NCBI RefSeq assembly: GCF_001187785.1
Contig: NZ_CP012154.1
Coordinates: 2,722,501-2,786,500, forward strand
Direction of reading: 5' to 3'
Source: Wenzhouxiangella marina
Lineage (GTDB): Bacteria; Pseudomonadota; Gammaproteobacteria; Xanthomonadales; Wenzhouxiangellaceae
DNA: 64,000 nucleotides
The notes under the pieces are model-generated. The model saw nothing but the letters and a program-made list of their open reading frames with translations, was not told the DNA's origin and made no database searches. Positions 33,779 through 61,726 of this stretch are shown in pieces. The position numbers and the translations under genes are program-made. Position 1 is the stretch's first letter. Each line of letters starts with the position of its first letter.

Positions 33779-34093
33779 TAACCACGAAGGACACGAAGGA
33801 GAACGGCCATCGAGTAGGTCGGGCTCACACGCCCGACGGACCATGTCCCAGGCATCTCCGTCAAACCGACGGCGCAATGCCGCAATTGTCGCGGGCAACC
33901 CGACGCACGAATATCGCAGGCATCGTCGCGTCTCCTAAGACATTGGATCTTCAATGGCGTCGGGTTGACGGAGGCACGCGGGGCATGGATCGATTCGTCG
34001 AAATTGAACGAATAACCACGAAGGAAATGAAAAAACCGGCCTCAGGTCATTTTTGAATTCTTTTTCTTCGTGCCCTTCGTGGCCTTCGTGGTG
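33779..34093. repeat. CACGAAG-type repeat interrupted by a GTAG composite repeat
   Basis: The sequence ACCACGAAGG occurs at 33781 (then ACACGAAGGA) and again near 34014, each preceded by a related GAACGA-x-TA stretch. The inverse arm CTTCGTGCCCTTCGTGG is near 34066-34082. Between the two left arms lies a copy of the GTAG hairpin plus its downstream module in minus orientation, and near 33957 a partial copy in the opposite orientation. The 459-base gap between the peptidase start and truC holds nothing else. Confidence 0.75.
33814..33837 (+). repeat. GTAG-headed REP hairpin, copy 1
   Basis: GTAG is followed by a perfect 7-bp stem GTCGGGC/GCCCGAC with loop TCACAC. GTAG-headed palindromes are the REP type of Stenotrophomonas and Xanthomonas relatives, usually mobilised by RAYT transposases; none is visible in this window. 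The matching downstream module (33849-33875) is diverged from the 27-bp core. Confidence 0.85.
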
Positions 34094-34155
34094 AGAAAAA
34101 CAGCCGACGAGTGGAGACACCTGGATGTTCCGGTCGTCGGGGATGTGACCCCGAC

Positions 34156-34854
34156 CTACGGCTCGGGGTTTCGGTCGGGCTCGAAGCGCTCGATGAGATC
34201 GGCGAAGACACCCGTCGGCGGGCAGTCGATCTGCATGGCTCGACCGTCGGCCGGGTGCTCGAAGCTCAGCTGGCTGGCGTGCAGGAGCATGCGGTGGCTG
34301 GCGAATTCGATGCGGAACAGGCGGTTGTGACGACCTTCACCGTAGGTGGTGTCGCCGATGATCGGATGGAAGCGATGCTTGAAGTGGCGACGCAGCTGGT
34401 GCATCCGCCCCGTTTCCGGCCGGGCCTCGACCAGGCTGTAGCGGGCCGTTGGATAGCGCCCGATGGGAATCGCCAGTTCCATCGTGGCCAGACGCCGGTA
34501 CTCGGTCACGGCCTCCTGTTCCGGGCCCTTGCCTTCGGCTTTCAGGGGGTGGTCGATTCGACCGGCCTCTTCGATGTGGCCGCGCACCACGGCCAGGTAC
34601 CGCTTGGCGACGCTGCGCGCCATCATCTGCTCGCCCAGGGCGCCGGCCGAGTCGGGGTCGAGGGCGAACAGCAGCACGCCGGAGGTCGCCCGGTCGAGAC
34701 GGTGCACCGGCCAGACCCGTTGGCCGAGCTGATCGCGCAGCATGCCCATGATGAAGCGGTCGTCGGTGCTGCGGCTCGAACGATGCACCATCAGGCCGCA
34801 GGGTTTGTCGATCGCGCAGAGCTGCTCGTCGCGGTAGAGGACCTCGAAACTCAA
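34156..34854 (-). CDS. truC: tRNA pseudouridine(65) synthase TruC
   Basis: RluA-family pseudouridine synthase, 232 aa, that modifies U65 of tRNA. The catalytic Asp is D54 in HRLDRATSGVLL. The segments GRYPTARYSLVEARPETGRMHQLRRH and HPIIGD follow the E. coli TruC sequence closely, which separates it from RluA/C/D. The start overlaps the MarR gene stop by four bases. Confidence 0.93.
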   Translation of the reverse strand: MSFEVLYRDEQLCAIDKPCGLMVHRSSRSTDDRFIMGMLRDQLGQRVWPVHRLDRATSGVLLFALDPDSAGALGEQMMARSVAKRYLAVVRGHIEEAGRIDHPLKAEGKGPEQEAVTEYRRLATMELAIPIGRYPTARYSLVEARPETGRMHQLRRHFKHRFHPIIGDTTYGEGRHNRLFRIEFASHRMLLHASQLSFEHPADGRAMQIDCPPTGVFADLIERFEPDRNPEP

Positions 34855-35279
34855 GCGCGGCTCGCCTCGAGCAGACGGTCGAGCAAGGCGTCGAGCTGAC
34901 GCCGTTCGGACGCACTGAGCACGCCCAGCAGCTCCTCTTCATAAGCCAGAGCCGCCGGCGCGATCGCGTCGAAGACGGACTGCCCCTGATCGCTCAGGAA
35001 CAGGTGCTTGGCCCGGCGATCCTCGGCATTGGCCTGGCGACGGATACGCCCCTGGTCGATGAGGCGGCGCACGGCGCGGCTCACCGCCACCTTGTCCATC
35101 GCCGATCGCTCGGTGACTTCCGTGGCCGAGATGCCGGGAAAGCGTCCGAGGATGGCGATCACCCGCCACTCGGTCACGCTCAGGCCGAAGCGCTCGGCAT
35201 AGGTGCGAGCGATGCCGGCACTGACCTGGTTGGACAGCACGGACAGGCGGTAGGGCAGGAAATGTTCCAGATCGAGCAT
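34851..35279 (-). CDS. MarR-family transcriptional regulator of the hpd cluster
   Basis: A 142-aa winged-helix repressor-type protein. The recognition region is WRVIAILGRFPGISATEVTERSAMDKVAVSRAVRRLIDQGRI, with the wing DRRAKHLFLSDQG. It is divergent from hpd, with a 16-bp inverted repeat over the hpd promoter between them. This suggests control of tyrosine/homogentisate catabolism, as for MarR- and HpdR-type regulators beside hpd elsewhere. It is translationally coupled to truC, which looks unrelated in function. Confidence 0.9.
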   Translation of the reverse strand: MLDLEHFLPYRLSVLSNQVSAGIARTYAERFGLSVTEWRVIAILGRFPGISATEVTERSAMDKVAVSRAVRRLIDQGRIRRQANAEDRRAKHLFLSDQGQSVFDAIAPAALAYEEELLGVLSASERRQLDALLDRLLEASRA

Positions 35280-35291
35280 GGTCGGACCGTC

Positions 35292-35320
35292 TTGAAATTG
35301 GTTTCAAATGTAACTAATAT
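35292..35320 (+). promoter_or_regulatory. hpd promoter with overlapping MarR-type operator
   Basis: The -35 TTGAAA (35292-35297), a 17-base spacer and the -10 TAATAT (35315-35320) read on the plus strand. The -35 is the left half of a perfect inverted repeat, TTGAAA-TTGG-TTTCAA (35292-35307). A bound MarR dimer would therefore cover the -35. The site lies 13 bases upstream of the divergent marR start and could also autoregulate it. Confidence 0.82.
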
Positions 35321-35394
35321 GGGCGGATTGATCAAGTCCGAGCCGCGCCGGAACGTGGCTCCACCACCGAAATCTGCCAAGGAGAGTGAAGGCC

Positions 35395-36441
35395 ATGACC
35401 GAGACACGTCCCAACCCGCTGGGTGTCGATCGCTTCGAGTTCATCGAGTACGCAGCCCCGGATGCCGCGCTGCTGCATGATCTGTTCCAGCGCCTCGGCT
35501 TCACGGCCGTGGCCCGCCACAAGTCCAAGGCCGTCACCCTGTACCGCCAGGGCGACATCAACTTCCTGGTCAACGAGATCCCGGATTCCTTCGCCAGCGA
35601 TTTCGCTGCCCAGCACGGCCCCTGCTGCACCGGCTTCGCGCTGCGCGTCAGCGACCCGGCCGATGCCCGCGAGCAGGCCCTGGCCCGCGGCGCCAAGCCC
35701 ATCGAGAACAAGCCCGAGACCCTGGCCGTCGATGGCCCGGCCATCTCCGGCATCGGCGGCAGCGCTCTCTATCTGACCGGCGGCATCGAGGATCTGGAAT
35801 CGCAGTTCGACTTCGACCCGGCCGTCGAACGCAACCCGCGCGGCGTGGGCCTGAGCTTCGTCGATCACCTGACCCACAACGTCTACAACGGCAACATGGC
35901 CGAATGGGCGGGCTTCTACGAGAAGCTGTTCGGCTTCTTCGAGGTCAAGTACTTCGACATCAAGGGTCAGCAGACCGGCCTGCGTTCCAAGGCGATGACC
36001 GCCCCGAACGGCAAGATATCGATTCCCATCAACGAATCCGAAAATCCGAAGAGCCAGATCAACGAGTACCTCGACGAGTACAAGGGCGAAGGTGTCCAGC
36101 ACATCGCGCTCTACACCGACAGCATCTACGAGTCGGTCGAGGCCCTGCACGCCAACGACATCGAGTTCCTCGACACGCCGGACACCTACTTCGACGTGAT
36201 CGACCAGCGCATCCCGAACCACGGTGAAGACGTCGAGCGCATGCGCAAGAACAAGATCCTGATCGATGCCGACCCGAACGAGTCGAACAAGCAGCTGCTG
36301 CAGATCTTCACCCAGACCAACATCGGCCCGATCTTCTTCGAGATCATCCAGCGCAAGGGCAACGAAGGCTTCGGCGAAGGCAACTTCCAGGCCCTCTTCG
36401 AAGCCATCGAACGCGACCAGGCCAAGCGCGGCGTCCTCTAA
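35395..36441 (+). CDS. hpd: 4-hydroxyphenylpyruvate dioxygenase
   Basis: Fe(II) dioxygenase that converts 4-hydroxyphenylpyruvate to homogentisate, second step of tyrosine breakdown. It is 348 aa. The iron ligands are H158 (SFVDHLTH), H236 (VQHIALYT) and E316 (IFFEIIQRKG), matching the Pseudomonas enzyme spacing. ATG 35395 was chosen because AAGGAG lies about ten bases upstream. It is first in hpd-hmgA-fah, divergent from its presumed MarR repressor. Confidence 0.97.
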   Translation: MTETRPNPLGVDRFEFIEYAAPDAALLHDLFQRLGFTAVARHKSKAVTLYRQGDINFLVNEIPDSFASDFAAQHGPCCTGFALRVSDPADAREQALARGAKPIENKPETLAVDGPAISGIGGSALYLTGGIEDLESQFDFDPAVERNPRGVGLSFVDHLTHNVYNGNMAEWAGFYEKLFGFFEVKYFDIKGQQTGLRSKAMTAPNGKISIPINESENPKSQINEYLDEYKGEGVQHIALYTDSIYESVEALHANDIEFLDTPDTYFDVIDQRIPNHGEDVERMRKNKILIDADPNESNKQLLQIFTQTNIGPIFFEIIQRKGNEGFGEGNFQALFEAIERDQAKRGVL

Positions 36442-36450
36442 CAAATCAAA

Positions 36451-36535
36451 TCACCACAGAGGCACTGAGTGCACAGAGAAAGGAAAAGAATAATTTTCAA
36501 GGCCTTTCTCTGTGATCTCTGTGCCTCCGTGGTGA
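36451..36535. repeat. Imperfect inverted repeat between hpd and hmgA
   Basis: Arms 36451-36483 and 36503-36535 (33 bases each, a few mismatches) contain TCACCAC, AGGCAC and CAGAGAAAGG. The intervening 19 bases are A/T-rich. It belongs to the widespread ACCACAGAGG-type intergenic repeat. In RNA it would form a long hairpin between the first two genes of the pathway. A solo arm lies at 15,142. Confidence 0.85.
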
Positions 36536-36548
36536 ACCCAAAAGGTAG

Positions 36549-37676
36549 ATGGCTATGAAGAACTGGATCACGCATCCGAAAGTGGAAGGCAAGGCCTCTC
36601 GGCAGGCGCATTGCGATCTGCCCGAGGGCACCTACGAACGCGAGCTGGGCAAGGAGGGTTTCTTCGGTCCGGCAGCGCACATGTACCACCCGAATGCTCC
36701 GACCGGCTGGACGGACTTCGAGGGTCCGCTGAAGCCGCGCGCATTCGACACGACCAGGCTCGATACCTCCACCGGCTCCCCCTGGGAGGCGACGGAGCTG
36801 ATGCACAACGCGCACACGCGCATCCGCCAGTGGAAGAGCGACGGGAAGATGGATCACCTGGTGCGCAATTCCGACGGCGACGAGATGCTGTTCATCCACG
36901 CAGGCGCCGGGGATCTCTACTGCGACTACGGCCGCCTGCCCTTCCGTGACGGCGACTACCTCATGCTGCCGCGCGGCACGATGTGGCGGATTCAGAGCGA
37001 GGCCCCGGTCGAGTTGCTGCTCATCGAAGCCACCAACTCGAGCTACATGCTGCCCGACAAGGGCCTGCTCGGCCCGCACGCGATCTTCGACCCGGCGATG
37101 CTCGACACCCCGAAGATCGACGAGGCCTTCAAGGCCCAGCAGGGCGAGGGCGAATGGAAGGTGCGGGTCAAGCGCCGCAACGCCATCTCGACGATCACCT
37201 ATCCGTTCAATCCGCTCGACGCCGTCGGCTGGCACGGCGATCTGATGCCGGTGAAGATCAACTGGCGCGACATCCGCCCCTTGATGAGCCACCGCTATCA
37301 CCTGCCGCCCTCGGCGCACACGACCTTTCTGGCCAATCGCTTCGTGATCTGCACCTTCGTGCCGCGTCCCTTCGAGACCGACCCGGACGCCCTCAAGGTA
37401 CCGTTCTTCCACAACAACGACGATTACGACGAGCTGATCTTCTACCACGCCGGCGAGTTCTTCTCGCGCGACAACATCCACCCGGGGATGATGACCCTGC
37501 ATCCCTGCGGCTTCACCCATGGCCCGCACCCGAAGGCGCTGAAGAATGCTTTCACGCCGAAGGCCGAGGGCACGGAGGAAGTGGCCGTGATGATCGACAC
37601 GCGTGATGCCCTCGAGGTCACCGAGCAGGCCGAGTCGATCGAGTGGACGGGGTATGTGGATAGTTGGAAGGGGTAG
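36549..37676 (+). CDS. hmgA: Homogentisate 1,2-dioxygenase
   Basis: Opens the homogentisate ring to give 4-maleylacetoacetate. It is 375 aa, the shorter bacterial form. The C-terminal cupin has the iron-ligand segment HNNDDYDELIFYHAGEF (His and Glu) and the later His-rich HPGMMTLHPCGFTHGPHP. ATG 36549 and ATG 36555 (MKNWITHPK) both follow AAAGGTAG; the second has the better spacing. It is the second gene of the tyrosine-catabolic run. Confidence 0.92.
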   Translation: MAMKNWITHPKVEGKASRQAHCDLPEGTYERELGKEGFFGPAAHMYHPNAPTGWTDFEGPLKPRAFDTTRLDTSTGSPWEATELMHNAHTRIRQWKSDGKMDHLVRNSDGDEMLFIHAGAGDLYCDYGRLPFRDGDYLMLPRGTMWRIQSEAPVELLLIEATNSSYMLPDKGLLGPHAIFDPAMLDTPKIDEAFKAQQGEGEWKVRVKRRNAISTITYPFNPLDAVGWHGDLMPVKINWRDIRPLMSHRYHLPPSAHTTFLANRFVICTFVPRPFETDPDALKVPFFHNNDDYDELIFYHAGEFFSRDNIHPGMMTLHPCGFTHGPHPKALKNAFTPKAEGTEEVAVMIDTRDALEVTEQAESIEWTGYVDSWKG

Positions 37677-37717
37677 GCATGGGTTTTTCTCGTCCTCCAG
37701 CACCCAAGTCGCCAAGT

Positions 37718-37734
37718 CCCGGATCAGGTCCGGG
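37718..37734. repeat. REP-like hairpin between hmgA and fah
   Basis: A 6-bp stem CCCGGA/TCCGGG with loop TCAGG, followed by GATGACGGATGG. It is the same family as the hairpins in the 58-bp repeats at 9541-9702, whose stem is CCCGGG. Confidence 0.7.
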
Positions 37735-37799
37735 ATGACGGATGGTGTAGCGAGCTACAGAAACCAGCACATCGAATTCAAATCGCAGGATCGTTATTT

Positions 37800-38786
37800 A
37801 TGAAATTGGCAACACTGAAAGAAGGTGGTCGGGACGGGACGCTGATCGTGGTCTCTCGCGATCTTTCACGGGCGGTCAAGGCGACCGACATCGCGCCGAC
37901 GCTGCAGGCCGCGCTGGACGACTGGTCGAACACGGCTCCGCGGCTCAACAGCCTGTTCGAGGACCTGCAGGCCGATCAGGCCGACGGCGCCTTCGATCTG
38001 GACATGAACGCCCTGGCCTCTCCCCTGCCGCGCGCTTACCAGTTCGTCGACGGCTCGGCCTACCTGCCGCACGTCGAGCGCGTTCGCAAGGCGCGCGGCG
38101 CCGAGGTGCCCGAGAGCTTCTTCACCGATCCGCTGATGTACCAGGCGGTCAGCGACGGATTCCTTGGCCCGCGCGACGACATCGTCATGGAAAGTACCGA
38201 CTGGGGCATCGACTTCGAGTCCGAGATCGGCGTGATCTGCGACGACGTGCCGATGGGCGCCAGCCCGGCCGAATGCGCCGACCATATCCAGCTGGTCACG
38301 ATCCTCAACGACGTCTCGCTCAGGAACCTGATCCCGGGCGAGCTGGCCAAGGGCTTCGGCTTCCTCCAGTCCAAGCCGCGCTCCGCCCTGGCTCCGGTCG
38401 TGGCCACGCCGGACGAGCTGGGTGACGCCTGGCAGGACTCCAAGCTGCACCGCCCGCTGGTCACGCACCTGAACGGCGAGCTGTTCGGCAACCCGGAGGC
38501 CGGTGAAGACATGCAGTTCAACTTCGCAGAGCTGCTGGCCCATGCGGCCAAGTCACGGCCCCTGGCCGCGGGCACGATCCTCGGCTCGGGCACGATCGCC
38601 AACCAGGACACGGGCCGCGGCGCCAGCTGCCTGGCGGAAAAGCGCATGCTGGAAATCATCGCCAACGGCAAGCCGGAGACCCCGTTCATGCAGTTCGGCG
38701 ACACGGTTCGCATCGACATGACCGACGCCGACGACAACAGCTACTTCGGCGCCATCGAGCAGACCGTCAAACCCTACGAGCGCTGA
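37800..38786 (+). CDS. fahA: Fumarylacetoacetase (FAH-family hydrolase)
   Basis: Last step of tyrosine degradation, splitting fumarylacetoacetate into fumarate and acetoacetate. It is 328 aa. Metal-binding acidic residues are visible in ESTDWGIDFESEIGV, followed by NDVSLRNLIPGELAKGFGFLQSKP and a terminal GDTVRIDM segment. ATG 37800 was chosen. The gene is third after hpd and hmgA and is followed by a clear terminator. FAH-family enzymes also act on other oxo acids, but the context makes this assignment strong. Confidence 0.93.
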   Translation: MKLATLKEGGRDGTLIVVSRDLSRAVKATDIAPTLQAALDDWSNTAPRLNSLFEDLQADQADGAFDLDMNALASPLPRAYQFVDGSAYLPHVERVRKARGAEVPESFFTDPLMYQAVSDGFLGPRDDIVMESTDWGIDFESEIGVICDDVPMGASPAECADHIQLVTILNDVSLRNLIPGELAKGFGFLQSKPRSALAPVVATPDELGDAWQDSKLHRPLVTHLNGELFGNPEAGEDMQFNFAELLAHAAKSRPLAAGTILGSGTIANQDTGRGASCLAEKRMLEIIANGKPETPFMQFGDTVRIDMTDADDNSYFGAIEQTVKPYER

Positions 38787-38814
38787 GAACAAACGCGGCA
38801 AATCGGTAGCAATC

Positions 38815-38845
38815 AGCGGCCCCGACTCGGGGCCGCTTTCGTTCT
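38815..38845 (+). terminator. Intrinsic terminator after the tyrosine cluster
   Basis: Perfect 9-bp stem AGCGGCCCC/GGGGCCGCT with loop GACTC, followed by TTCGTTCTGG. It lies 28 bases after the fah stop. The opposite strand lacks a U-run, so it does not obviously serve the convergent EamA gene. Confidence 0.85.
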
Positions 38846-38878
38846 GGAACGATGACCCGACCCCACAACGGCAGCCAC

Positions 38879-39802
38879 TCACTGCTGCCGGTCGGTTCGA
38901 TGCCGCCGGAGCCGCAAGCGGCGCGGCCTTCGGTGGTCCCTCGAGATCATGCTCAGCACGGTCACGGTCGACAGGATCAGGGCCACGCCTGACCACTGGA
39001 CCACCGTCAATCGCTCACCGAGCACCGCGAAAGCGAACAGGGAGGCCGTGACCGGCTCGATCATCGCCACGACCGAGGCCACCGGCGGCGGCGTATGGCG
39101 CAGGCCGATCACATAGAGCACGAAGGACAGGCCCGCACCCAGCACTCCGATCGCCAGGAACAGCGGCCAATCGGGACTGGTCCATGCCGAGCGCAGTTGC
39201 AGATGATCGCTCGGCCAGGCCAGAACGCTCACCAGAACCAGGAAGGCGATCGACAGAATGGCGGCGGCATTGCCGTGTGCAGAAGCGTATTTGAAACCGA
39301 AGATGAACAGCGCGTAGCAGGCCCCGGACAGCAGCCCCGCAGCCAGCGCGACGGGAGTGATGGCAGCGGCGTCGAGCCGATGCACCTCGACCAGAAGAAG
39401 GATACCGACCAGCACGAGGGCCATCGCGACCCACTTCCCCGCCGTCGGGGGCTCCAGCCCGAACGAAAAGGACACCAGGTAGACGAACACCGGCGCGCAA
39501 TACATCAGGGTGGCTCCGACGGCCAGACTGCCGTGCTCGACGCTGACGAAATAGAGTGCGAAATTGCCCGTCACGCCCAGACCGGCCAACACCGACCAGA
39601 ACCACAGCGGCGCACGGCCGAGACCGCTACGCTTCGGATGAACGGCAACCCAGCACAGGACGGCGAGCAGCCCGACCGCGCCGCGATAGAAGGAAATCAC
39701 GAGCGGATCCCAACCACGATCGATCAGTACGCCCCCGAGCCCACCGGACAGGCCCCAGAACAGGGCGGCCAACAGCAGCAATAGCGTGCTGGGACACGAC
39801 AA
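38879..39802 (-). CDS. EamA-family (DMT superfamily) transporter
   Basis: A 307-aa inner-membrane permease with ten hydrophobic segments in two EamA repeats (about 1-140 and 148-288) and an Arg-rich C-terminal tail. I prefer TTG 39802, which has AGAGGAGG four bases upstream. The longer frame from GTG 39826 would place that ribosome-binding site inside coding sequence. EamA members export amino acids or metabolites; the substrate is not predictable. Confidence 0.88.
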   Translation of the reverse strand: MSCPSTLLLLLAALFWGLSGGLGGVLIDRGWDPLVISFYRGAVGLLAVLCWVAVHPKRSGLGRAPLWFWSVLAGLGVTGNFALYFVSVEHGSLAVGATLMYCAPVFVYLVSFSFGLEPPTAGKWVAMALVLVGILLLVEVHRLDAAAITPVALAAGLLSGACYALFIFGFKYASAHGNAAAILSIAFLVLVSVLAWPSDHLQLRSAWTSPDWPLFLAIGVLGAGLSFVLYVIGLRHTPPPVASVVAMIEPVTASLFAFAVLGERLTVVQWSGVALILSTVTVLSMISRDHRRPRRLRLRRHRTDRQQ

Positions 39803-40019
39803 TCGTCCTCCTCTGTTCGCGGACACTCCAATGCACCGAGGGAACCTCTGAACATCAGGGTGTCAGTTCCTGGCTTCCGCTGCCCGAAATCCGGCCAAAT
39901 CGCCACGCCTCGCGGGTTCCGGCCCCGAATCCGGCAAGAAGGGACGACTTGCCGATTTCCTCGAATGAATGCAGACTAAGTAATGTAGGAGCCTTTAAAG
40001 TAGCGATAGGGAGTCTGTC

Positions 40020-41678
40020 ATGCGTATTCTTCACGTGGCGTGCTTGACCATGACCGTTGCCTTCAGCGGTCTGACCCATGGCGCCGATGCCTTACCGCTC
40101 GACTGGGAAGCGATCGTCAATAACGGCGATGAAGCGCCCGGCGGCGATGCCAACGACCTGTTCAGGAGTTACAACCCGCCCAGCATGAACGATCAGGGCG
40201 TGGTCGTCTTCCGTGCAAGGTCTGCCATTCTGGGCGGCCCCCAGTCCGGGGGTCTCTACATGATCGACCTCGGCAGCGTGGACCCGGCCATCAAACTGCT
40301 GTTCCGAGGCGACCCGGTGCCTGCACCCAACAACCTCGGCGCCACCTTCATCGAGTTCCCCTCCACCCCACGCATCGATCCGAACGGCAGCCTCGTGGCC
40401 TCGCGGGGGCAGCACGATCCGGTCTGGGAGTATTCCCTGGGCGGCAAGGAGACCACCCGCGTCGGAACCGCCGGCATCTATGCGTTCCCGACCGTCGGCG
40501 ATCCCGCCGTGACCGGCGCCAGTCTGCTCGGGGCCGCGGTCGAGCCGGATCAGATCACCCTGAGCTTCCCGTGGTTTTCGGTGCCGGCCACCGTCTCTGG
40601 GACACGCTTCGATCAGTTCCCGGGCGCCACGGCGGTCGACGGCGATTACATCATCTTCAAGGGCAACTACACGGACCTGACCGATGGCCTGGGTCGGACC
40701 GGCATCTATTTCCGTGACGTGGTCAGCACCAGCCCGACGCCCTACACGGGCATGATCGCCAGTTCCAACCTCGAAATTCCCGGGTCGGGGGGCGTGTTGT
40801 TCGGCGCGACCGCCCCACCGAGCGCCGCCAACGGGAGCGTCTACTTCACCGGCTGGGACATCGAGGAAGCCCCGACCATCGGCGGCATCTTCAAGGCACC
40901 CATCGCGCATCTGCCGACCCTCGAAAACGTGGTGGCCATCGGCGATCCCGTGCCGGATGCGCCCGGCGAGACCTTCGCCAATTTCGGCGAGGGCATCTCG
41001 GTCAGCAGCGACGGCTCGATGATCGCCTTCTGGGGAACCTGGGGCGCGGCGACCTTCAGCAAGCTACTCGAGTGCCCGATCGACGGCAACCCGGCCCTGA
41101 TCGCCTTCTGCAACGAACAGCATCCCGATGGCCTGCTCGTGGACATTCCCATCAACCAGGGCATCTTCCTGCATGACACCGGCAGCGGCACGACCTCGAT
41201 GATCTCGCGCACCGGCCAGGAAAGCATCGAGGACTACCTGTTCTGGGTCTTTTCGGGGCGTGTACCCGGCACCGGTGACGAGGAAACCGACGAGCCGGCG
41301 CGCTGGCGGAGCAGCGCGTATGCCGCACTGTCCACCGCCATCGACCAGCCTGCTCGCGTCGCCTTCCAGGCACAGCGCTCGGGCCGCGCCGGCATCTACC
41401 TGCGCGATGGGGTCGATCCGTTCAACCCGCTCAAGACCGTGGCCGAAGTCGGCACGACGCTCGGACAGGCGGTGGATCCCGACGCCCCCGTGGATTCCTT
41501 CGTCAGTTCGGTGGCAATGGAGCGCGACGGCTTCCGCAACGGCCGCCTCGCAATCGCCCTGGGCATGCTCTACATCGACCCGGTCGATCCGGAGGAGACC
41601 GCAAGCTGGGCCGGCATCTACAGTGCCGTCATCCCCCTGGACAACATCTTCGCAGACCGCTTCGAACAGCAGCCCTGA
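40020..41678 (+). CDS. Secreted NxxGxxAF-type repeat protein with IFxDRFEQ tail
   Basis: A 552-aa exported protein with a signal peptide ending near GADA. Several short repeats resemble the N-x-x-G-x-x-A-F motif of the choice-of-anchor tandem repeat families: N57-D-Q-G-V-V-V-F64, then NGSVYFTG and SSDGSMIAF. These suggest a repeated beta-sheet or propeller fold. The C-terminus DNIFADRFEQQP is nearly the same as that of the beta-helix protein at 27,101. A GGGAG precedes ATG 40020. Its function is unknown; surface location is inferred. Confidence 0.75.
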   Translation: MRILHVACLTMTVAFSGLTHGADALPLDWEAIVNNGDEAPGGDANDLFRSYNPPSMNDQGVVVFRARSAILGGPQSGGLYMIDLGSVDPAIKLLFRGDPVPAPNNLGATFIEFPSTPRIDPNGSLVASRGQHDPVWEYSLGGKETTRVGTAGIYAFPTVGDPAVTGASLLGAAVEPDQITLSFPWFSVPATVSGTRFDQFPGATAVDGDYIIFKGNYTDLTDGLGRTGIYFRDVVSTSPTPYTGMIASSNLEIPGSGGVLFGATAPPSAANGSVYFTGWDIEEAPTIGGIFKAPIAHLPTLENVVAIGDPVPDAPGETFANFGEGISVSSDGSMIAFWGTWGAATFSKLLECPIDGNPALIAFCNEQHPDGLLVDIPINQGIFLHDTGSGTTSMISRTGQESIEDYLFWVFSGRVPGTGDEETDEPARWRSSAYAALSTAIDQPARVAFQAQRSGRAGIYLRDGVDPFNPLKTVAEVGTTLGQAVDPDAPVDSFVSSVAMERDGFRNGRLAIALGMLYIDPVDPEETASWAGIYSAVIPLDNIFADRFEQQP

Positions 41679-41766
41679 TCTGGCGTGATCAGGATGGCCG
41701 ACGCCCGCCTTGGCGGCGTCGGCCTCCGAAGCAGAACAAGGAACACCGCAGTAGGGAGAAGCTTCG

Positions 41767-43512: not shown

Positions 43513-43609
43513 CGATCCCCCACTCGACTGGTCGGGCATCGGCCTCGAGTCCTGCCGCACAGGGACCGACGCGGCCGATGGCCGTCAGGCAGTTCATCGG
43601 GGCTCGCAA

Positions 43610-45567: not shown

Positions 45568-45571
45568 CGGC

Positions 45572-51017: not shown

Positions 51018-51229
51018 CGATCTCTTCCTGTTGGATAGTCCAACCCGAATCGTGTCCGATCCGGCGCGGCGATCGCAGTGCCTGAAGTCATGAGCGATCG
51101 AACAGCTGAGGAATTCGCCGTTGCCCGGGGCACGTCAATGCCTGGCTCGCAGCCCGGCATCCACCTCAGCCCAAAGCCGGTCTTCCGATTCGCTTAGAAT
51201 TCGAGAACGCTTTCCCCGCATCCCTCATC

Positions 51230-51877: not shown

Positions 51878-51915
51878 GCGCGCCGTGCGCCCTGCCAAAG
51901 ACGCCTGACCAGACC

Positions 51916-53282: not shown

Positions 53283-53334
53283 GCGCGCACCAGCCCCTCG
53301 TCCGCGCTGTCTCCCGGGGTCCATCAGGTTCTCC

Positions 53335-53363
53335 TTGATTTACCCCGGAGGCAGCGTTATAAA
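53335..53363 (+). promoter_or_regulatory. Sigma-70 promoter upstream of ydcH
   Basis: TTGATT (53335-53340), a 17-base spacer and TATAAA (53358-53363). Transcription would start near 53370, about 208 bases before the ydcH ATG. The leader has no credible gene, so it is a long 5' UTR or carries a small RNA. Confidence 0.75.
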
Positions 53364-53577
53364 AGACTGACGATGGTGGACGAGTCAGGTGAAACCTGCG
53401 CTGAAACGCGTACCCCCCGGGCCCTGGCGGCTCACGAATCACCTCGTCCTACGAAAAACCCGTCCCCCTCTTCTTTCGCCCCCGGCCCGAGCGGCCGGTG
53501 GCGCCCCAACCAGTGCGATCGTCGCCGTGAATCGGCGCGATGGCATGCGCTCACGACCTGAAACAAGGAGAACGCCC

Positions 53578-53796
53578 ATGTTCGAACATCGTCAGGAACA
53601 GATGGAAAGCCTGCTGAAGGACAACGCCAACTTCCGCCGCCTTTTCAATCGTCACCAGGACCTCGAGAAGCGCATCATTGCCGCCGAAAACGGCACGGCT
53701 CCGATGGATGATCTGGCCGTGAACCAGCTCAAGCGAGAAAAGCTGAAGGCCAAGGATGAAATGGCCCGCCTGATGGATCAGGCCCAGGCCGCCTGA
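53578..53796 (+). CDS. YdcH/DUF465 family small protein
   Basis: A 72-aa cytosolic helical-hairpin protein of the YdcH family. The pattern NANFRRLFNRHQDLEKRI, then LKREKLKAKDEMARLM, is diagnostic. AAGGAG lies seven bases upstream of ATG 53578; the longer open frame runs back through the leader and has no family support. Function is unknown. Confidence 0.88.
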   Translation: MFEHRQEQMESLLKDNANFRRLFNRHQDLEKRIIAAENGTAPMDDLAVNQLKREKLKAKDEMARLMDQAQAA

Positions 53797-53936
53797 ATCG
53801 CCCCCCGACGGCCGGCGCCCCTGCCGGCCGTCGCGATTTCTCTCGAATCTCGCAACCGCAAGCACAGTCGTCCCGAGTTGCGGTGCCGGTGGCCTTCGGC
53901 TATCTTGCCCGCCAACCTTCAACCTCCCGAGTCGGC

Positions 53937-55313: not shown

Positions 55314-55319
55314 GCGGTT

Positions 55320-55800
55320 CTGGGCGTCGCCTGTTCGGCGATGTCCGGAATATCCGTGCGTCGGGTTTTCCGCGATGGTTGCGGCATGGCGCCGTCGGGT
55401 TGACGGAGATGTCGGATGCATGGACCGGGCGTCGTCGGTCCGGCGATGTCTGGGATATCCGTGCGTCGGGTTGCCCGCGATGGCGGTGGCATTGCGCCGT
55501 CGGGTTGACGGAGATGTCGGATGCATGGACCGTCGGCCACACGCGCGGCCGGTCTCCGGCACGGCGCTCCTGGCCTGCGGCCAACCGCACCATGCCTCCA
55601 ACCTGCGCTGGGCCGACCTACGCAGGGTTTCGATGCGGATGGTCGATGTTTGAGGGGTGCCGGGCCTCGGGTGGTCCGGGGTGCCGTTGATCGACACAGG
55701 CGGCGCACCGGGCACGATGCTCGAAAATCGTAGGTCGGGCCCACGCGCCCGACGGTCCATGTCGCAGACATCTGCGTCAATCCGGCTGCGTGACCATGCT
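55320..55800. repeat. GTAG composite repeat island between cbs and the AbgT gene
   Basis: Two direct copies of the module lie 105 bases apart. Each has a leading half with CGTGCGTCGGGTT and the exact 27-bp core at 55389-55415 and 55494-55520. Further on is an inverse copy of the linker containing GGGGTGCCGTTGAT, then a GTAG hairpin (55730-55753) with a diverged downstream module. The 585-base gap contains no other feature. Confidence 0.85.
55730..55753 (+). repeat. GTAG-headed REP hairpin, copy 2
   Basis: GTAG, then stem GTCGGGC/GCCCGAC, 7 bp perfect, loop CCACGC. It is followed by GGTCCATGTC as at copy 1. Confidence 0.88.
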
Positions 55801-55898
55801 GGCCCGTCTCCTCACAACGCGGCCACTGGCACCACGAACGGCGCCCGCAGTTGCTATCATCGGGCGTCTTTGCTGATCGAAACGGAGCAAGCCGAATC

Positions 55899-57494
55899 GT
55901 GTCTTCGCAATCTCCGGCGTCCGAGCAGGCGCCGCGCAATCTCTTTACCCGTTTTCTCGACACCGTGGAGTGGCTGGGCAATCTGCTGCCGCACCCGGTG
56001 ACCCTGTTCGCCCTGCTGGCCACGGCGATGGTGTTCGTGTCCGGCATCTTCGGCTGGATGGGGGTGGCAGTCGAGGACCCGCGCCCGAACGTGCCCGACG
56101 GGACCATGATCGAGGCGGTCAGCCTGCTCAATGCCGAGGGTCTGCGCATGATCCTCGGCAACCTGGTCTCGAACTTCGTGAATTTCGCGCCCCTCGGCGT
56201 GGTCCTGGTGGCCATGCTCGGCGTCGGCGTGGCCGAGAAGTCCGGCCTGCTCTCGGCGATGGTGCGCGGCATCGTGATGAACGCGCCCAAGCACCTGGTC
56301 ACCGTGGCCGTGGTCTTTGCCGGGGTGATCTCGAACACCGCCTCGGAGATGGGCTACGTGGTCCTCGTGCCCCTGGCCGGCGCGATCTTCCTGGCCCTGG
56401 GACGCCACCCCCTGGCCGGCATGGCAGCGGCCTTCGCCGGAGTCTCGGGCGGCTACTCGGCCAACCTGCTGCTCGGCACGATCGATCCCCTGCTCGCCGG
56501 CATCACCCAGGAGGCCGCGCGACTGATCGACCCGACCTATGAGGTCTTCGCCACCGCCAACTGGTGGTTCATGATCGTCAGCACCTTCCTGATCACCGCC
56601 ATCGGCTCCCTGGTCACGATCTTCATCGTCGAGCCCAAGCTGGGCCGCTACGACAGCTCGCGCGCCGACCCGGCCGTGGTCAAGGACAGCAAGATGGAAC
56701 CCCTGGACGGTCGCGAGAAGAAGGGCCTGATCGCGGCCTTCATCGCCCTGCTGGCCCTGCTCGGACTGATCGCGGTACTGGTGATCCCCGATTCGGGCGT
56801 GCTGCGCGACCCGGCCGTCGACAGCAGCAACTTCCTGGCGTCCTCCCGGCCCTTCTTCCGCTCGGTCGTGGCCTGGATCTTCGTGTTCTTCCTGGTCACC
56901 GGCTTCGCCTATGGCCGCATTGCCGGCACGATGAAGAACGATCGCGACATCATCGACGGCATGGCCTCGGCCATCTCGACCCTGGGGCTATACGTGGTGC
57001 TGGTGTTCTTCGCCGCCCAGTTCGTCGCCTTCTTCGGCTGGTCGAACCTGGGCCTGATCACCGCCGTCACGGGTGCGGACTTCCTGCAATCGATCGGCCT
57101 GACCGGCCCGCTGGTGTTCCTGTTCTTCATCATCATGTGCGGCATCGTCAATCTGAGCCTGGGCTCGGCCTCGGCGCAGTGGGCCGTGACCGCGCCGATC
57201 TTCGTGCCGATGCTGATGTTCATCGGCTACTCGCCGGAGGTCATCCAGGCCGCCTACCGAATCGGCGACTCGACGACCAACATCATCACTCCGATGATGA
57301 GCTACTTCGGCCTGATCCTGGCCTGGGCGACGCGCTACGACAAGAACTTCGGCATCGGCACCCTGATCGCCACCATGCTGCCCTACTCGATCTGCTACTT
57401 CATCGGCTGGACCCTGCTGTTCTTCCTGTGGGTCTTCGGCTTAGGGATGCCCGTCGGGCCGGGTTCGCCGACCTACTACACCGTCCCGGGCTGA
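55899..57494 (+). CDS. AbgT-family transporter
   Basis: A 531-aa inner-membrane transporter of the AbgT/YdaH/MtrF family, known for p-aminobenzoyl-glutamate uptake or sulfonamide efflux. About ten hydrophobic segments and two re-entrant loops are expected; the conserved segment SNTASEMGYVVLVPL and the later GSASAQWAVTAPIFVPM and GDSTTNIITPMMSYFGLI are present. GTG 55899 is the best start (GGAG about 12 bases upstream). It lies five bases upstream of the DUF971 gene. Confidence 0.93.
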   Translation: MSSQSPASEQAPRNLFTRFLDTVEWLGNLLPHPVTLFALLATAMVFVSGIFGWMGVAVEDPRPNVPDGTMIEAVSLLNAEGLRMILGNLVSNFVNFAPLGVVLVAMLGVGVAEKSGLLSAMVRGIVMNAPKHLVTVAVVFAGVISNTASEMGYVVLVPLAGAIFLALGRHPLAGMAAAFAGVSGGYSANLLLGTIDPLLAGITQEAARLIDPTYEVFATANWWFMIVSTFLITAIGSLVTIFIVEPKLGRYDSSRADPAVVKDSKMEPLDGREKKGLIAAFIALLALLGLIAVLVIPDSGVLRDPAVDSSNFLASSRPFFRSVVAWIFVFFLVTGFAYGRIAGTMKNDRDIIDGMASAISTLGLYVVLVFFAAQFVAFFGWSNLGLITAVTGADFLQSIGLTGPLVFLFFIIMCGIVNLSLGSASAQWAVTAPIFVPMLMFIGYSPEVIQAAYRIGDSTTNIITPMMSYFGLILAWATRYDKNFGIGTLIATMLPYSICYFIGWTLLFFLWVFGLGMPVGPGSPTYYTVPG

Positions 57495-57499
57495 TCGGA

Positions 57500-57856
57500 A
57501 TGGCCGAACCCACCGAGATCCGGCTGGAAAGATCCCGCCGGGTGCTGGTCGTCGAATACGACGACGGCCAGTGCTTCGAGCTGCCCTGCGAGTACCTGCG
57601 CACCCATTCGCCCTCGGCGGAGGTGCGCGGGCACGGCCTGTCCGAGCCGATGCTGATGACCGGCAAGGAAGACGTCAACATCACGAGAATCGAGCCGATC
57701 GGCAGCTACGCCGTGGCCCTGCACTTCGACGATGGCCACAACAGCGGCCTGTATTCATGGTCCTTCCTTTATGATCTGGGCCAGAACATGGAGACCAATC
57801 TGGCCCGCTATGCGCAACGACTGCGCGACGACCTCGGATCCGGTGGCGCGTCTTAA
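57500..57856 (+). CDS. DUF971 protein (butyrobetaine hydroxylase N-terminal-like)
   Basis: A 118-aa cytosolic protein. The N-terminal DUF971 domain has VEYDDGQCFELPCEYLRTHSPSAEVRGHG and the C-terminal HFDDGHNSGLYSWSFLYDLG, the standard pattern. In Proteobacteria it commonly precedes ubiE, as here. Its function is not established. Start ATG 57500 is five bases after the AbgT stop. Confidence 0.9.
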   Translation: MAEPTEIRLERSRRVLVVEYDDGQCFELPCEYLRTHSPSAEVRGHGLSEPMLMTGKEDVNITRIEPIGSYAVALHFDDGHNSGLYSWSFLYDLGQNMETNLARYAQRLRDDLGSGGAS

Positions 57857-57866
57857 AGCGATTGAA

Positions 57867-57934
57867 ACCACGAAGGCACGAAGGACACGAAGTAAAAGCT
57901 CTTCTTTCTTCGTGCCCTTCGTGACCTTCGTGGT
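57867..57934. repeat. CACGAAG-type inverted repeat between DUF971 and ubiE
   Basis: Left arm 57867-57892 (ACCACGAAGGCACGAAGGAC and CACGAAG) and right arm 57908-57934 (CTTCGTGCCCTTCGTGACC then TTCGTGGT) form an imperfect inverted repeat around a 15-base A/T-rich loop. It is the same family as the repeat at 33,779-34,093. Confidence 0.85.
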
Positions 57935-57982
57935 AGATATGAATATCGAAAACTGGCAGGACACCTCGACAGGCACACAGAC

Positions 57983-58708
57983 ATGACGGATTTTGGATAC
58001 AAGGAAGTCGCGCCGGAGGAAAAGACGCGGCTGGTCGGGAAGGTGTTCACCTCGGTCGCGTCCAAGTACGACCTGATGAACGACCTGATGTCCATGGGCA
58101 TTCACCGCCTTTGGAAGCGCCAGTTCGTCGCGGGCTGCGGCATCCGCCAGGGCGATCGCCTCCTCGACCTGGCCGGCGGCACCGGCGACATCGCCCGCCT
58201 GGCGCACAAGGCCGGCGCTCGCGTGACCGTGGCCGACATCAACCATGCCATGCTCACCGTCGGCCGCGCTCGCATGGACGAGGCGGGCCTGGTCCAGGGC
58301 TTCGACTGGCTGCAGGTCAACGCCGAGGCCCTGCCCTTTGCCGACCAGCAGTTCGACCACGTGACCATCGCCTTCGGCCTGCGCAACGTGACCTGGCGCG
58401 ACCGCGCCCTGAAGGACATGCACCGGGTCCTGAAGCCCGGCGGCCGGGTCCACATCCTCGAGTTCTCGAAGGTCGGCCTGCCGGCCCTGGCGAAGCTCTA
58501 CGACGGCTGGTCCTTCCAGGTGCTGCCGCGCCTGGGCGCGCGCATCGCCGGCGATGCGGACAGCTACCGTTACCTCGCCGAGTCGATTCGCCGCTTTCCT
58601 GATCAGGAGACCCTGGCCGAGCAGATGCGCGAGGCCGGCTTCGAGCGGGTCAGCTGGCAGAACCTGTCGGCGGGCATCTGCGCCATCCACCGTGGCGCGA
58701 AGGTCTGA
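57983..58708 (+). CDS. ubiE: Ubiquinone/menaquinone C-methyltransferase UbiE
   Basis: SAM-dependent C-methylation in quinone synthesis, 241 aa. The N-terminal signature VFTSVASKYDLMNDLMSMGIHRLWK and motif I LLDLAGGTGDIA are intact, as is the C-terminal IAFGLRNVTW. It is the first gene of ubiE-ubiJ-ubiB; its stop shares one base with the ubiJ start. Confidence 0.97.
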   Translation: MTDFGYKEVAPEEKTRLVGKVFTSVASKYDLMNDLMSMGIHRLWKRQFVAGCGIRQGDRLLDLAGGTGDIARLAHKAGARVTVADINHAMLTVGRARMDEAGLVQGFDWLQVNAEALPFADQQFDHVTIAFGLRNVTWRDRALKDMHRVLKPGGRVHILEFSKVGLPALAKLYDGWSFQVLPRLGARIAGDADSYRYLAESIRRFPDQETLAEQMREAGFERVSWQNLSAGICAIHRGAKV

Positions 58709-59325
58709 TGGCCCGATACCTCACGCCCCTGCCCGGTCTGTTCGCGGGCCTGATCGACCAGGCGATCCAGCGCGCGGTCGCCCTGGACGAGCGCGCGGCA
58801 GACCGCCTCGCCTCGCTGGAGGGTCGCAGCGTGCAACTGGCTCTCGAGGGCGTGGGCATCGATCTGTTCTTCAGCGGCCAGGCCGGCCGCCTGAACGTGA
58901 GCGCTGAATCGCTCTCTGAAACCGAGCCCGACACCACCATCCGCGGCACGCCGGCGGCCCTGCTGGCCATGGCCGTGCCCGACTGGCGAACGCCGGGCAG
59001 TGGCGTGCGCATCGAAGGGGATGCAGGCACGGCGCAAGCCCTGGAGAAACTCTTCCGCCAGCTCGACCCGGACTGGGAACGTCTGGCCACCGAACAATTC
59101 GGCGAGGTCATCGGCCATCAGGTCTGGCGCCTGGCCCGGGACGTGCTCGATCTGGGCAGGCATAGCCTGGGCACGGCCGGGGACCAGGTCGCGCGCTACC
59201 TGCGCGAAGAAAGCGGCCTGCTGGTCACTCGTGAGGAGGTCGACCGTTTCGTGTCCGAAGTCGACGAGCTGCGCGAAGCGACCGACCGCCTGGAATCCCG
59301 CCTGCGTCGCGAGGGTCGGGCATGA
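58708..59325 (+). CDS. ubiJ: Ubiquinone biosynthesis accessory protein UbiJ
   Basis: A 205-aa SCP2-domain protein that in E. coli belongs to the soluble Ubi metabolon and binds prenylated intermediates. Residues about 15-105 form the SCP2-like fold (VQLALEGVGIDLFFSGQAGRLNV), then a helical C-terminus with YLREESGLLVTREEVDRF. The position between ubiE and ubiB supports the call. The stop overlaps ubiB by four bases. Confidence 0.93.
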   Translation: MARYLTPLPGLFAGLIDQAIQRAVALDERAADRLASLEGRSVQLALEGVGIDLFFSGQAGRLNVSAESLSETEPDTTIRGTPAALLAMAVPDWRTPGSGVRIEGDAGTAQALEKLFRQLDPDWERLATEQFGEVIGHQVWRLARDVLDLGRHSLGTAGDQVARYLREESGLLVTREEVDRFVSEVDELREATDRLESRLRREGRA

Positions 59326-60968
59326 TCCGTCACGGCCTGCGTCTGGCCAGCATCGGCCTGACCCTGGCGCGCTATCGCCTGGACGAAGGCCTGAAGGGTT
59401 GGCCGATCCACCTCCTGGCCAGCTCGGCACGCGTGTTGTCGTGGGGCCCCCGCCCGCCGGTCGACGCCAACCGCGGTCATCGTCTGCGCCTGGCCCTGCA
59501 GGAACTGGGGCCGATCTACGTCAAGTTCGGACAGATTCTCTCCACCCGCCGCGATCTGCTGCCACCGGACATCGCCGACGAGCTGGCCGGGCTGCAGGAC
59601 GATGTGGAACCCTTCGGCGTCGACGAAGCCCGCGCCATCGTCGAGGCCGAACTCGAAGCCCCCATCGACGAGCTCTTCGAGGACTTCGAGAACACGCCCC
59701 TGGCCTCGGCCTCGATCGCCCAGGTGCACGGCGCCAGGCTCAAGAGCGGCGAATCGGTCGTGGTCAAGATCGTCCGCCCGGGCATCAAGCGGCAGATCGA
59801 CCGTGACCTGGCCCTGATCAAGAGCCTGGCCCGCCTGGTCCGCAAGACCCATCCCGAGGGCGAACGGATTCGACCGGATGAGGTCGTGGCCGAATTCGAG
59901 CGCGTTGTCGATGGCGAGCTGGACATGCAGGCCGAGGCAGCCAATGCCTCGCTGATCCGGCGCAATTTCGAGGATTCCTCCGACCTCTACATCCCCGAGA
60001 TCCACTGGGAGCTGACCGCCAGCCGCGTGCTGGTCATGGAGCGCGTGAGCGGAATTCCGGTTCGCCGCATCGACGAACTCAAGCGCCTGGGCGTGGACCT
60101 GGAGAAGCTGGCGCGCCGGGGCATTCGCGTCTTCTACACCCAGGTCTTCCGCGACAATCTGTTCCACGCCGACATGCACCCGGGCAACATCCTGGTCGAT
60201 GCCAGCAACCCGGACGACCCGACCTTCATCTCCCTGGATTTCGGCATCGTCGGCAGCCTGACGCCGAAGGACCTCTACTACATCGGCGAGAACTTCCTGG
60301 CCATCTTCAACCGCGAGTACCGACGCGTGGCCGAGCTGCACGTCGAAGCCGGCTGGGTGCCGGCAGACACCCGCATCGATCAGCTCGAGGCGGCTGCGCG
60401 GACGGTATGCGAGCCGGCCTTTACCCGGCCGCTGGAGGAAGTGAGCTTCGCCGAGCTGGTGATCAATCTGTTCCAGGTGGCCCGCAAGTTCAAGCTGACC
60501 ATCCAGCCGCAGCTGATCATGCTGCAGAAGACCCTGCTCAACATCGAAGGCATGGGTCGCGATCTCTACCCGAAGATCAACATCTGGGAAGTCGCCAAAC
60601 CCGAACTGGAATCGATCTACCAGGAACGCTACGGCCTGCCGCGCACGGCCCAGCGCATCCGTCGCCAGCTGCCCGGCATGCTGGCCCGCAGCCCGGAGCT
60701 GCCGACCCTGATCTACGAGTACCTCAAGATGGCCGGCAGCGGCCATATCCGCACTCGAATCGACTCCAGCGACCTGGCCGAACTGGCCGAGGAACTGGGC
60801 CAGCACAACCGCCGCCTGCCCGGCGCCATCGTGGCCGCCGGTCTGATCGTGGCCGGCGCCGTGCTCGCCGGCTACCAGGTCGGTCCCCTGTGGCAGGACA
60901 TCTCCATCGCCGGCGGCGTCAGCGCCCTGCTCGGTCTGATCATCGGCTGGCGTTCCTGGCGGGGATGA
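59322..60968 (+). CDS. ubiB: Ubiquinone biosynthesis protein kinase-like UbiB
   Basis: Atypical kinase/ATPase of the UbiB/COQ8/ADCK family, 548 aa. The KxGQ motif KFGQ (YVKFGQILSTRRDLLP), the A-rich loop ASASIAQVHGA, the catalytic HADMHPGNILVD and the DFG-like DFGIVG are present. Two C-terminal hydrophobic segments (about 507-525 and 528-545) anchor it in the membrane. It is last in ubiE-ubiJ-ubiB. A large repeat island begins right after it. Confidence 0.96.
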   Translation: MIRHGLRLASIGLTLARYRLDEGLKGWPIHLLASSARVLSWGPRPPVDANRGHRLRLALQELGPIYVKFGQILSTRRDLLPPDIADELAGLQDDVEPFGVDEARAIVEAELEAPIDELFEDFENTPLASASIAQVHGARLKSGESVVVKIVRPGIKRQIDRDLALIKSLARLVRKTHPEGERIRPDEVVAEFERVVDGELDMQAEAANASLIRRNFEDSSDLYIPEIHWELTASRVLVMERVSGIPVRRIDELKRLGVDLEKLARRGIRVFYTQVFRDNLFHADMHPGNILVDASNPDDPTFISLDFGIVGSLTPKDLYYIGENFLAIFNREYRRVAELHVEAGWVPADTRIDQLEAAARTVCEPAFTRPLEEVSFAELVINLFQVARKFKLTIQPQLIMLQKTLLNIEGMGRDLYPKINIWEVAKPELESIYQERYGLPRTAQRIRRQLPGMLARSPELPTLIYEYLKMAGSGHIRTRIDSSDLAELAEELGQHNRRLPGAIVAAGLIVAGAVLAGYQVGPLWQDISIAGGVSALLGLIIGWRSWRG

Positions 60969-61231
60969 GACCGCGGGAGGCCTGAGCCTCGCAAATCACC
61001 ATGGTGAACCGGTGCAGGTCGCCTGGCCGGTGATGCCGGCGATATCCGTGCGTCGGGTTTTCCGCGGTGCCAGGGGCATTGCGCCGTCGGGTTGACGGAG
61101 ATGTCGGGGACATGGACCGTCTACGGTTTCCGAGCATCGTGGCGGGGTGCCAACGGTCTATATCAACGGCACCCCGGACCACCCGAGGTCCCGGGCCCGT
61201 CAAACATCGGCTCCGTCAATCGGAGCCCTGG

Positions 61232-61255
61232 GTAGGTCGGGGCCACGTCCCCGAC
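61232..61255 (+). repeat. GTAG-headed REP hairpin, copy 3
   Basis: GTAG with stem GTCGGGG/CCCCGAC and loop CCACGT. The last base pair of the stem is G-C, where copies 1 and 2 have C-G. Confidence 0.88.
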
Positions 61256-61287
61256 GGTCCATACATCCGAAATCTCCGTCAATCCGA

Positions 61288-61361
61288 CTGCGAGATGACC
61301 GAACCCCACCGACAATCCGACGCACACATCCCCACGCACCCACCCGGAACCGAACGAAGCC
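61288..61361 (+). repeat. Direct repeat, first copy (74 bp)
   Basis: Begins CTGCGAGATGACCGAACC and ends CCGAACGAAGCC. It is identical to 61973-62047 except for one extra C in the second copy. Confidence 0.92.
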
Positions 61362-61496
61362 ACCACGAAACCATCACCATCGTAAGACGGTGCATGTCGC
61401 GTGGCCAGCGATGCCTGCGATATCCGTGTGTCGGATTCTCCGCGATGCTTGGGGCATTGCGCCGTCGGGTTGACGGAGATGTCGGATACATGGACC

Positions 61497-61520
61497 GTCG
61501 GGCGCGTGGGCCCGACCTAC
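61497..61520 (-). repeat. GTAG-headed REP hairpin, copy 4
   Basis: Minus-oriented: stem GTCGGGC/GCCCGAC, loop CCACGC (read on the minus strand), GTAG at 61517-61520. It directly follows core copy 61459-61485 and ACATGGACC. Confidence 0.88.
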
Positions 61521-61702
61521 GGTCCGCAAGCATCGTGGCGGGGGTGCCATCGATGTCGATCAACGGCACCCCGAAACCATCACCACGGTGGACCGGTGCA
61601 TGTCGCCTGGCCGGTGATGCCGGCGATATCCGTGCGTCGGGTTTTCCGCGATGGCTGCGGCATTGCGCCGTCGGGTTGACGGAGATGTCGGGGACATGGA
61701 CC

Positions 61703-61726
61703 GTCGGGGACGTGGCCCCGACCTAC
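61703..61726 (-). repeat. GTAG-headed REP hairpin, copy 5
   Basis: Minus-oriented: stem GTCGGGG/CCCCGAC, loop CCACGT, GTAG at 61723-61726. It directly follows core copy 61665-61691. Confidence 0.88.

Follow-up and report, generated by a model that had tools for sequence, protein, structure and literature searches.

We have analysed a window of 64,000 nucleotides of the one-contig genome of Wenzhouxiangella marina (positions 2,722,501 to 2,786,500; G000:C1:2722501-2786500), in which three clusters of GTAG-headed hairpins, or repetitive extragenic palindromes (REPs), are joined to a longer conserved stretch that we call the module. All three clusters are intergenic and lie 3' of at least one gene, and the flanking genes have Pfam matches: an M14 peptidase and a pseudouridine synthase at one cluster, a PALP/CBS-domain gene and an AbgT transporter at another, and convergent ABC1-kinase and phosphopantetheinyl-transferase (PPTase) genes around the array at 60973-62047. 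The TAG within the GTAG of the REP at 34135-34159 is the stop codon of the minus-strand pseudouridine synthase open reading frame (ORF). Five hairpins had been reported in the initial annotation and direct reading finds them all (33814, 55730 and 61232 on the plus strand, and minus-strand ends at 61520 and 61726); as it stated, the 7-bp stem has C-G as its innermost pair in 33814, 55730 and 61497 (minus) and G-C in 61232 and 61703 (minus), and the hairpins are linked to GGTCCAT (after four) or to its variant GGACCAT (after 33814). To these we add a sixth hairpin (34135-34159, minus) and a 90-nt giant form (55532-55621, minus), together with module matches that have no adjoining hairpin at 33989 (weak, E 0.055), 55426, 61118, 61835 and 61941 (Table 1).

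Table 1. REPs, modules and paired units in the window (window coordinates)
Feature	Position	Strand	Remarks
T/A unit, 346 bp	33814..34159	+	REP(+), module T1-T3, other repeats, GACCGGAA tail, REP(-)
GTAG REP	33814..33838	+	GC/GC type
Module (tandem 34-nt units) after REP	33838..33939	+	End approximate, from profile length; profile match 1-102, E 1.2e-24
GTAG REP closing first unit	34135..34159	-	A-type tail
Module copy without REP in front	55326..55426	-	Far end approximate (genome 2777926)
Module after long-loop REP	55434..55531	-	Far end approximate (genome 2778031)
90-nt long-loop REP	55532..55621	-	GTAGGTCGG ... CCGAC
GTAG REP	55730..55754	+	GC/GC type
Partial module	55754..55800	+	Model 1-47
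Module, REP hairpin missing	61020..61118	-	GTAGAC then GGTCCATG
T/T unit, 289 bp	61232..61520	+	Two REPs, facing modules (left 'ag', right 'ca')
GTAG REP	61232..61256	+	GG/CC type
GTAG REP	61496..61520	-	GC/GC type
Module after REP	61603..61702	-	E 4.5e-27
GTAG REP	61702..61726	-	GG/CC type
Two tandem module copies without REP	61835..62041	+	First starts GTAG then TCCATG

The hairpins belong to an abundant family. In the whole genome (3,675,202 bp) the pattern GTAGGTCGG...CCGACG has 109 matches (58 and 51 by strand) against 4 (1 and 3) for the reversed control pattern, and this combination of a GTAG head, a short palindrome and a high copy number places them in the GTAG REP superfamily, as had been proposed from the window. 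A second, slightly looser scan of fetched stretches, which left the inner two stem positions free, gave 110 matches whose inner two pairs were GG/CC in 44, GC/GC in 33, CC/GG in 32 and CG/GC in one. The single CG/GC match (genome 2779976), which is also among the 109 of the genome-wide pattern, was dropped as a chance match, leaving 109. The three stem types are subfamilies with alternative complementary bases, a trait of the superfamily. In fact, both inner pairs, and likewise the pair beyond the bulged base, are standard in all 108 standard-length copies, and the second outer pair in 107 of them, being unpaired in a single copy. For 26 distinct REPs, chosen and typed by hand from this genome and from genus or family mates, the stem covariation score was 0.394 compared to 0.135 (standard deviation 0.022) after shuffling and to at most 0.092 when slid, with 99.5% of the cells paired, a score that kinship among the rows inflates. 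Furthermore, a wider set of 38 distinct 25-nt REPs shows standard pairing at the three inner positions in 37, 37 and 36 cases. Across the family, as among the five hairpins, the stem change is compensatory.

Besides the simple form, we observed giant REPs with the usual GTAGGTCGG foot and CCGAC end and a hairpin of 90 nt, both in the window and elsewhere (genome 353293, 2806950 and 2813563, for example). Eighteen of the long-loop REPs that precede a module were measured, of which 17 have exactly 90 nt, in two sequence classes, and the other has 39 nt; the start of one 90-nt class has 25 genome-wide matches with up to 2 mismatches (control, 0), at least one of which (3346914) is a short REP.

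A profile search with the module gave 134 matches in 250,348 fetched bases. Among the 130 that start at the profile beginning, a simple REP precedes 89, a long-loop REP 22 and neither of the two 19, so that 111 module starts have a hairpin before them. Seen from the REPs, 95 of the 110 tails are of a T type (92 GGWCCAT and 3 close variants) and 14 of an A type resembling GACCGGAG, the remaining one being the chance match. The initial annotation had made its composite unit depend on stem covariation and on genome-wide co-occurrence of hairpin and module, and both were found. When the module is shifted against itself there is one peak, at 34 nt (identity 0.50 compared to a mean of 0.28, standard deviation 0.045, for shifts of 15-59), indicating that it consists of about three degenerate units, T1-T2-T3, that follow each other in tandem. 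The T tail is thus GGWCCATG followed by up to three 34-nt units, and the A tail is GACCGGAG...; the 27-bp core described in the initial annotation, which was given without its letters, we take to lie in the first unit. Many copies are partial: profile position 90 is reached by 90 of the 134 matches, and 30 start at the beginning yet end before position 60. The junction CCGAC/GGWCCAT is constant in most copies, with the module restricted to one side of the REP. In three modules the hairpin is gone and the GTAG is kept, followed by TCCATG in two and, as GTAGAC, by GGTCCATG in one (window 61118 and 61835, and genome 2808968), as if the stem-loop had been removed.

The REPs and their tails are organized in larger units. 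Defining a unit as two adjacent simple REPs whose GTAG heads point outward and whose distance is below 450 bases, we found 27 of them, of 138-346 bp, 20 with two T tails (T/T) and 7 with one tail of each type (T/A). Such a pair of inverted REPs with a spacer is the architecture of the REPINs, and their alternation in tandem arrays, in which some linkers are long and others short, is that of the bacterial interspersed mosaic elements (BIMEs). Long modules that face each other are of two subtypes, 'ag' and 'ca', which are unlike in 20 of 22 pairs (the other 2 are ambiguous); the pairs are spread over about six places and probably descend from a single ancestral unit. Fourteen of the facing pairs were aligned: the match extends from end to end for the loci at 0.35, 2.59 and 3.55 Mb, the pairs at 2.78-2.82 Mb are shorter in the middle and the one at 1.83 Mb is more divergent. 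This homology at distant loci indicates that whole units have been dispersed. We also considered a long hairpin formed by the two arms of a unit through compensatory changes. Among ten loci, with one unit each, arms in cis were no more alike than arms in trans (0.712 compared to 0.733 for T1, and 0.434 compared to 0.447 for T2-3), so there is no visible selection for arm matching, although the REPs themselves can pair. The unit is bigger than the hairpin plus module envisaged in the initial annotation, namely an outward REP pair with inward T/T or T/A tails, often in tandem.

A search of the same genome for the gene of a REP-associated tyrosine transposase (RAYT), to which such REPs are usually tied, was positive. 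One protein, encoded by a 169-aa open frame outside the window (G000:C1:2854940-2855449, minus), exceeds the cut-off of the RAYT model (NCBIfam NF047646, E 8.8e-41), and the model counts four further matches in this genome beyond the matches listed. The protein contains HMH and a Y-I-H-Y-N-P-V-K-H-G stretch, which we take to be the HUH and tyrosine motifs of the IS200/IS605-like type. Its gene lies inside an 800-bp stretch between outward, inverted GTAG REPs; 5' of the gene lies a T arm, which matches the module over model 1-91 (E 8.1e-13), and 3' of it an A tail. The gene-less units have these T and A ends in common with the RAYT stretch, as miniature elements of the MITE type do with a putative autonomous copy. 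Moreover, 33 of the 109 REPs lie within 100 kb of the RAYT, and so do 6 of 30 clusters (p 0.005), or 5 of 29 when the RAYT's own cluster is left out (p 0.02).

Among 101 genomes, the composite query of hairpin and module matched 25: this one, 18 of the genus, 3 of the family and 3 of the order, with up to 8 candidates scored per genome. Among the matches listed, those outside W. marina end at query base 43 or before, that is, they cover the REP and at most 18 tail bases. REPs of this class are present in genus mates. The module alone gave a best E of 0.009 over 21 bases in 29 genus mates, which we take as chance, and a REP-tail/T1 composite pattern had no match in a collection of 84,980 species from which the own or near genomes were excluded, so the full module appears, among the genomes searched, to occur in W. 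marina only. We also scored the sequence past GGWCCATG in 104 tails from fetched loci, a subset of the REPs of those genomes, against its own shuffles. T1-like tails above the 95th percentile were found in 8 of 13 cases in G014, 5 of 8 in G016 and 3 of 4 in G028, and less often in G009 (4/17) and G029 (4/17), while the tails of G011 (1/9), G017 (0/7) and G027 (0/29) are unlike T1; all tails taken together differed from the upstream flank (p 0.002), with the reverse in G027, where the upstream flank scored above the tail. Among the RAYT flanks of ten mates, the RAYTs closest to that of W. marina are those of G028 (56%) and G016 (55%). REPs of this class flank the RAYT on both sides in G011 (one of its two RAYTs) and G027 and on one side in G016, and none was found by the search pattern adjoining the RAYT of G023 (54%). 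This distribution suggests that T1 predates the species and that T2 and T3 may be a local expansion. In these relatives we also noted, by eye from positions, several short units of about 108-111 bp in G009, G011 and G029, and head-to-tail rather than alternating REPs, with several spacings near 127 bp, in G027 (L218-L220).

The orientation of the units was compared to the direction of replication, with dnaA at 438 and one dif-like site at 1,950,330 that has 2 mismatches to the presumed dif pattern. When each locus is read from T to A, or from 'ag' to 'ca', 6 of 6 T/A loci and 5 of 6 T/T loci point against the fork (together 11/12, sign test 0.006). The RAYT stretch points with the fork and its inclusion gives 11/13 (sign test 0.02). 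For long modules counted in 20-kb bins, 'ag' is against the fork in 7 and with it in 2, and 'ca' is with the fork in 13, against it in 8 and tied in 1, a weak bias when taken alone. The orientation bias would fit single-strand transposition, for the few loci that there are.

Altogether, we consider it very likely that these sequences are non-autonomous mobile elements of the REPIN/BIME type with long ends, for which the RAYT in this genome is, or once was, required. Their movement, their dependence on this particular RAYT and the direction of derivation are what we infer. Each element would be bounded by two inverted GTAG REPs, heads outward, with a T or an A tail inside each, and the small elements would be gene-less derivatives of the RAYT stretch, the T/A ones through internal deletion and the T/T ones through the joining of two T ends. 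Other RAYTs are reported to bind single-stranded GTAG hairpins, and not their complements, and to cut at CT on either side (PMC8266576). By analogy with the published biochemistry of TnpA-REP, the RAYT would bind the single-stranded GTAG hairpin and cut at nearby CT dinucleotides, the unit would be copied or moved via single-stranded DNA, and the tandem BIME arrays could grow through repeated RAYT rounds or slippage. The CT in the T1 core ATCTCC (tail positions 17-22) is our guess for a cleavage site. A bolder version, which we put forward only tentatively and regard as somewhat doubtful, is that recognition involves more than the REP. The RAYT stretch would then be a genuine single-strand transposon with two distinct ends, REP+T on the left and REP+A on the right, and the REPINs and BIMEs would be its living deletion derivatives, which still move with a replication-strand bias.

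Several observations weigh against the interpretation as mobile elements. Two of the five covariation measures for the 26 REPs were not above shuffles, as pairs changed on both sides numbered 4 compared to 3.1 (74/500) and further pair types 5 compared to 5.6 (487/500). Two of the seven T/A units (3259566 and 3259776, near 3.26 Mb) show the GGACCAT start and no module match, and the 19 module starts mentioned above have no REP in front by our search patterns, even if one of them (3477142) does adjoin the 39-nt REP form. Among the inside pairs, 24 of 27 consist of unlike REPs (p 0.011 by shuffling), and so do 24 of 28 among the outside pairs (p 0.026), figures that tandem copies inflate; counted per locus the value is 13/16 (p 0.15) and we do not claim such a preference. 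The enrichment of clusters around the RAYT is not significant at 50 kb (2/30, p 0.20) and is weaker at 150 kb (p 0.03), and the RAYT stretch is oriented relative to replication opposite to the other T/A units. The evidence from empty sites is mixed. The gap between the ABC1-kinase and PPTase genes is 1107 bp here compared to 18 bp in the genus mate G026, which speaks in favour of mobile elements; of 11 mate loci, 5 including that of G026 have both genes, and in the other four of these the gap is 486-1056 bp of other DNA. The search pattern found no REP in these five loci, and in L269 a degenerate REP-like stretch was seen by eye. Our confidence is also lowered because a RAYT over the cut-off appears in 5 of the 18 genus mates that match the composite query (G011, G016, G019, G023 and G027), many of the others being incomplete. 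Finally, movement was not observed, one strain of the species is covered, and the RAYT stretch may have acquired the module from elsewhere instead of being its source.

The same anatomy would result if the copies were a fossil family that spread passively, by tandem duplication and gene conversion or ectopic recombination, the difference from RAYT-dependent elements being in present activity. The regular periods of the arrays (408 bp near 3.56 Mb and 462 bp near 2.81 Mb), the many partial or diverged copies and the presence of one RAYT over the cut-off would agree with it, but REP-bounded units lie at loci megabases apart and the RAYT frame is open, and we find this explanation rather unlikely. 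It is very improbable, in our opinion, that the module is an independent, older repeat that served as a preferred target for REP insertion. The module starts without a REP could be read in this way, and Di Nocera et al. (2013, PMC3733652) do describe some REPs that regularly insert into other palindromes; however, among the profile matches no intact module continues across a REP site, and the constant junction on one side of the REP, the T1-like tails after REPs in G014, G016 and G028, and the GTAG remnant in three REP-less copies all argue against it. That hairpin and module are transcribed as a regulatory RNA or terminator, which selection on gene expression would maintain, could be suspected from the position of the window clusters 3' of genes, the covarying stem and the hairpin that supplies an ORF stop codon, but this is the least probable of these alternatives and hardly credible, as RNAalifold predicts no pair in 45 module copies (thinned to at most 88% identity from 90 full-length ones), arms within a unit resemble each other no more than arms of separate units do, the module was not found in the 29 genus mates and tRNA is the sole Rfam family that reached the gathering score in the window. 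Of the two natures that had been envisaged for the unit, mobile or regulatory, the mobile one agrees with the REPIN/BIME architecture and with the presence of both tails beside the RAYT, and a regulatory nature by way of a structured RNA is not supported by the fold prediction or the comparison of arms.

Preferring the mobile elements, we can compare them with known systems. REPs, REPINs, BIMEs and REPtrons have been described already (PMC2817692, PMC3116915, PMC3733652, PMC3686654). The GTAG head, the short palindrome with complementary variants, the rayt between inverted REPs and the alternating tandem REPs are like those reported in Stenotrophomonas (Nunvar et al. 2010, PMC2817692), and the build-up of REPs near rayt that the same source reports for other bacteria resembles the case here. 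The segments between REPs of the Stenotrophomonas BIMEs are said there to have no mutual homology, whereas here most of them share the module of 34-nt repeats. As in the REPINs of Pseudomonas fluorescens, two inverted REPs make the replicative unit, which is thought to derive from REPs flanking an ancestral autonomous element (Bertels and Rainey 2011, PMC3116915); in SBW25, according to that account, REPINs have a length of about 71-110 bp and compensatory changes preserve the pairing of their two sides, in contrast to the 138-346 bp and the unmatched arms found here. A few REP families are described as tied to other tracts (Di Nocera et al. 2013, PMC3733652). A parallel in that source is with the TIRs and TIRtrons of P. 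putida and P. fluorescens, in which a (degenerate) GTAG REP is joined to a conserved stretch, in hundreds of copies, and flanks a transposase gene. The joined part of the TIRs is described as another stem-loop, in contrast to a tandem 34-nt repeat for which no fold is predicted. A further difference from the TIRs is that the RAYT stretch has two unlike ends, T and A. The elements of W. marina are thus a long-armed variant of a described mobile system, the REP/RAYT system being already known, and not the undescribed class that the initial annotation had thought possible.

Some other repeats were seen in the window. A CACGAAGG-type repeat within the 346-bp unit (34010-34095) occurs again at 57905-57934. 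Three tandem 58-nt repeats (88-100%) lie at 9534-9707, with a distant fourth copy at 37686 (66%), and there are two inverted repeats, one of 30 nt (26492-26521 / 26829-26858, 93%, 307 nt apart) and one of the CACAGAG type (36451-36535, 33 nt, 88%, 19 nt apart).

Among the best matches in the openly accessible literature, Wenzhouxiangella was not found beside the terms REP, RAYT, BIME or REPIN. The origin of REPINs and BIMEs from RAYT genes, and their spread, are still largely inferred. With one clear RAYT whose two differing ends recur in dozens of gene-less elements, W. marina offers a compact system for testing this ancestry and the end requirements. Moreover, each copy of the long modules offers much more sequence to align than a 25-nt REP does, which makes the insertion history traceable.

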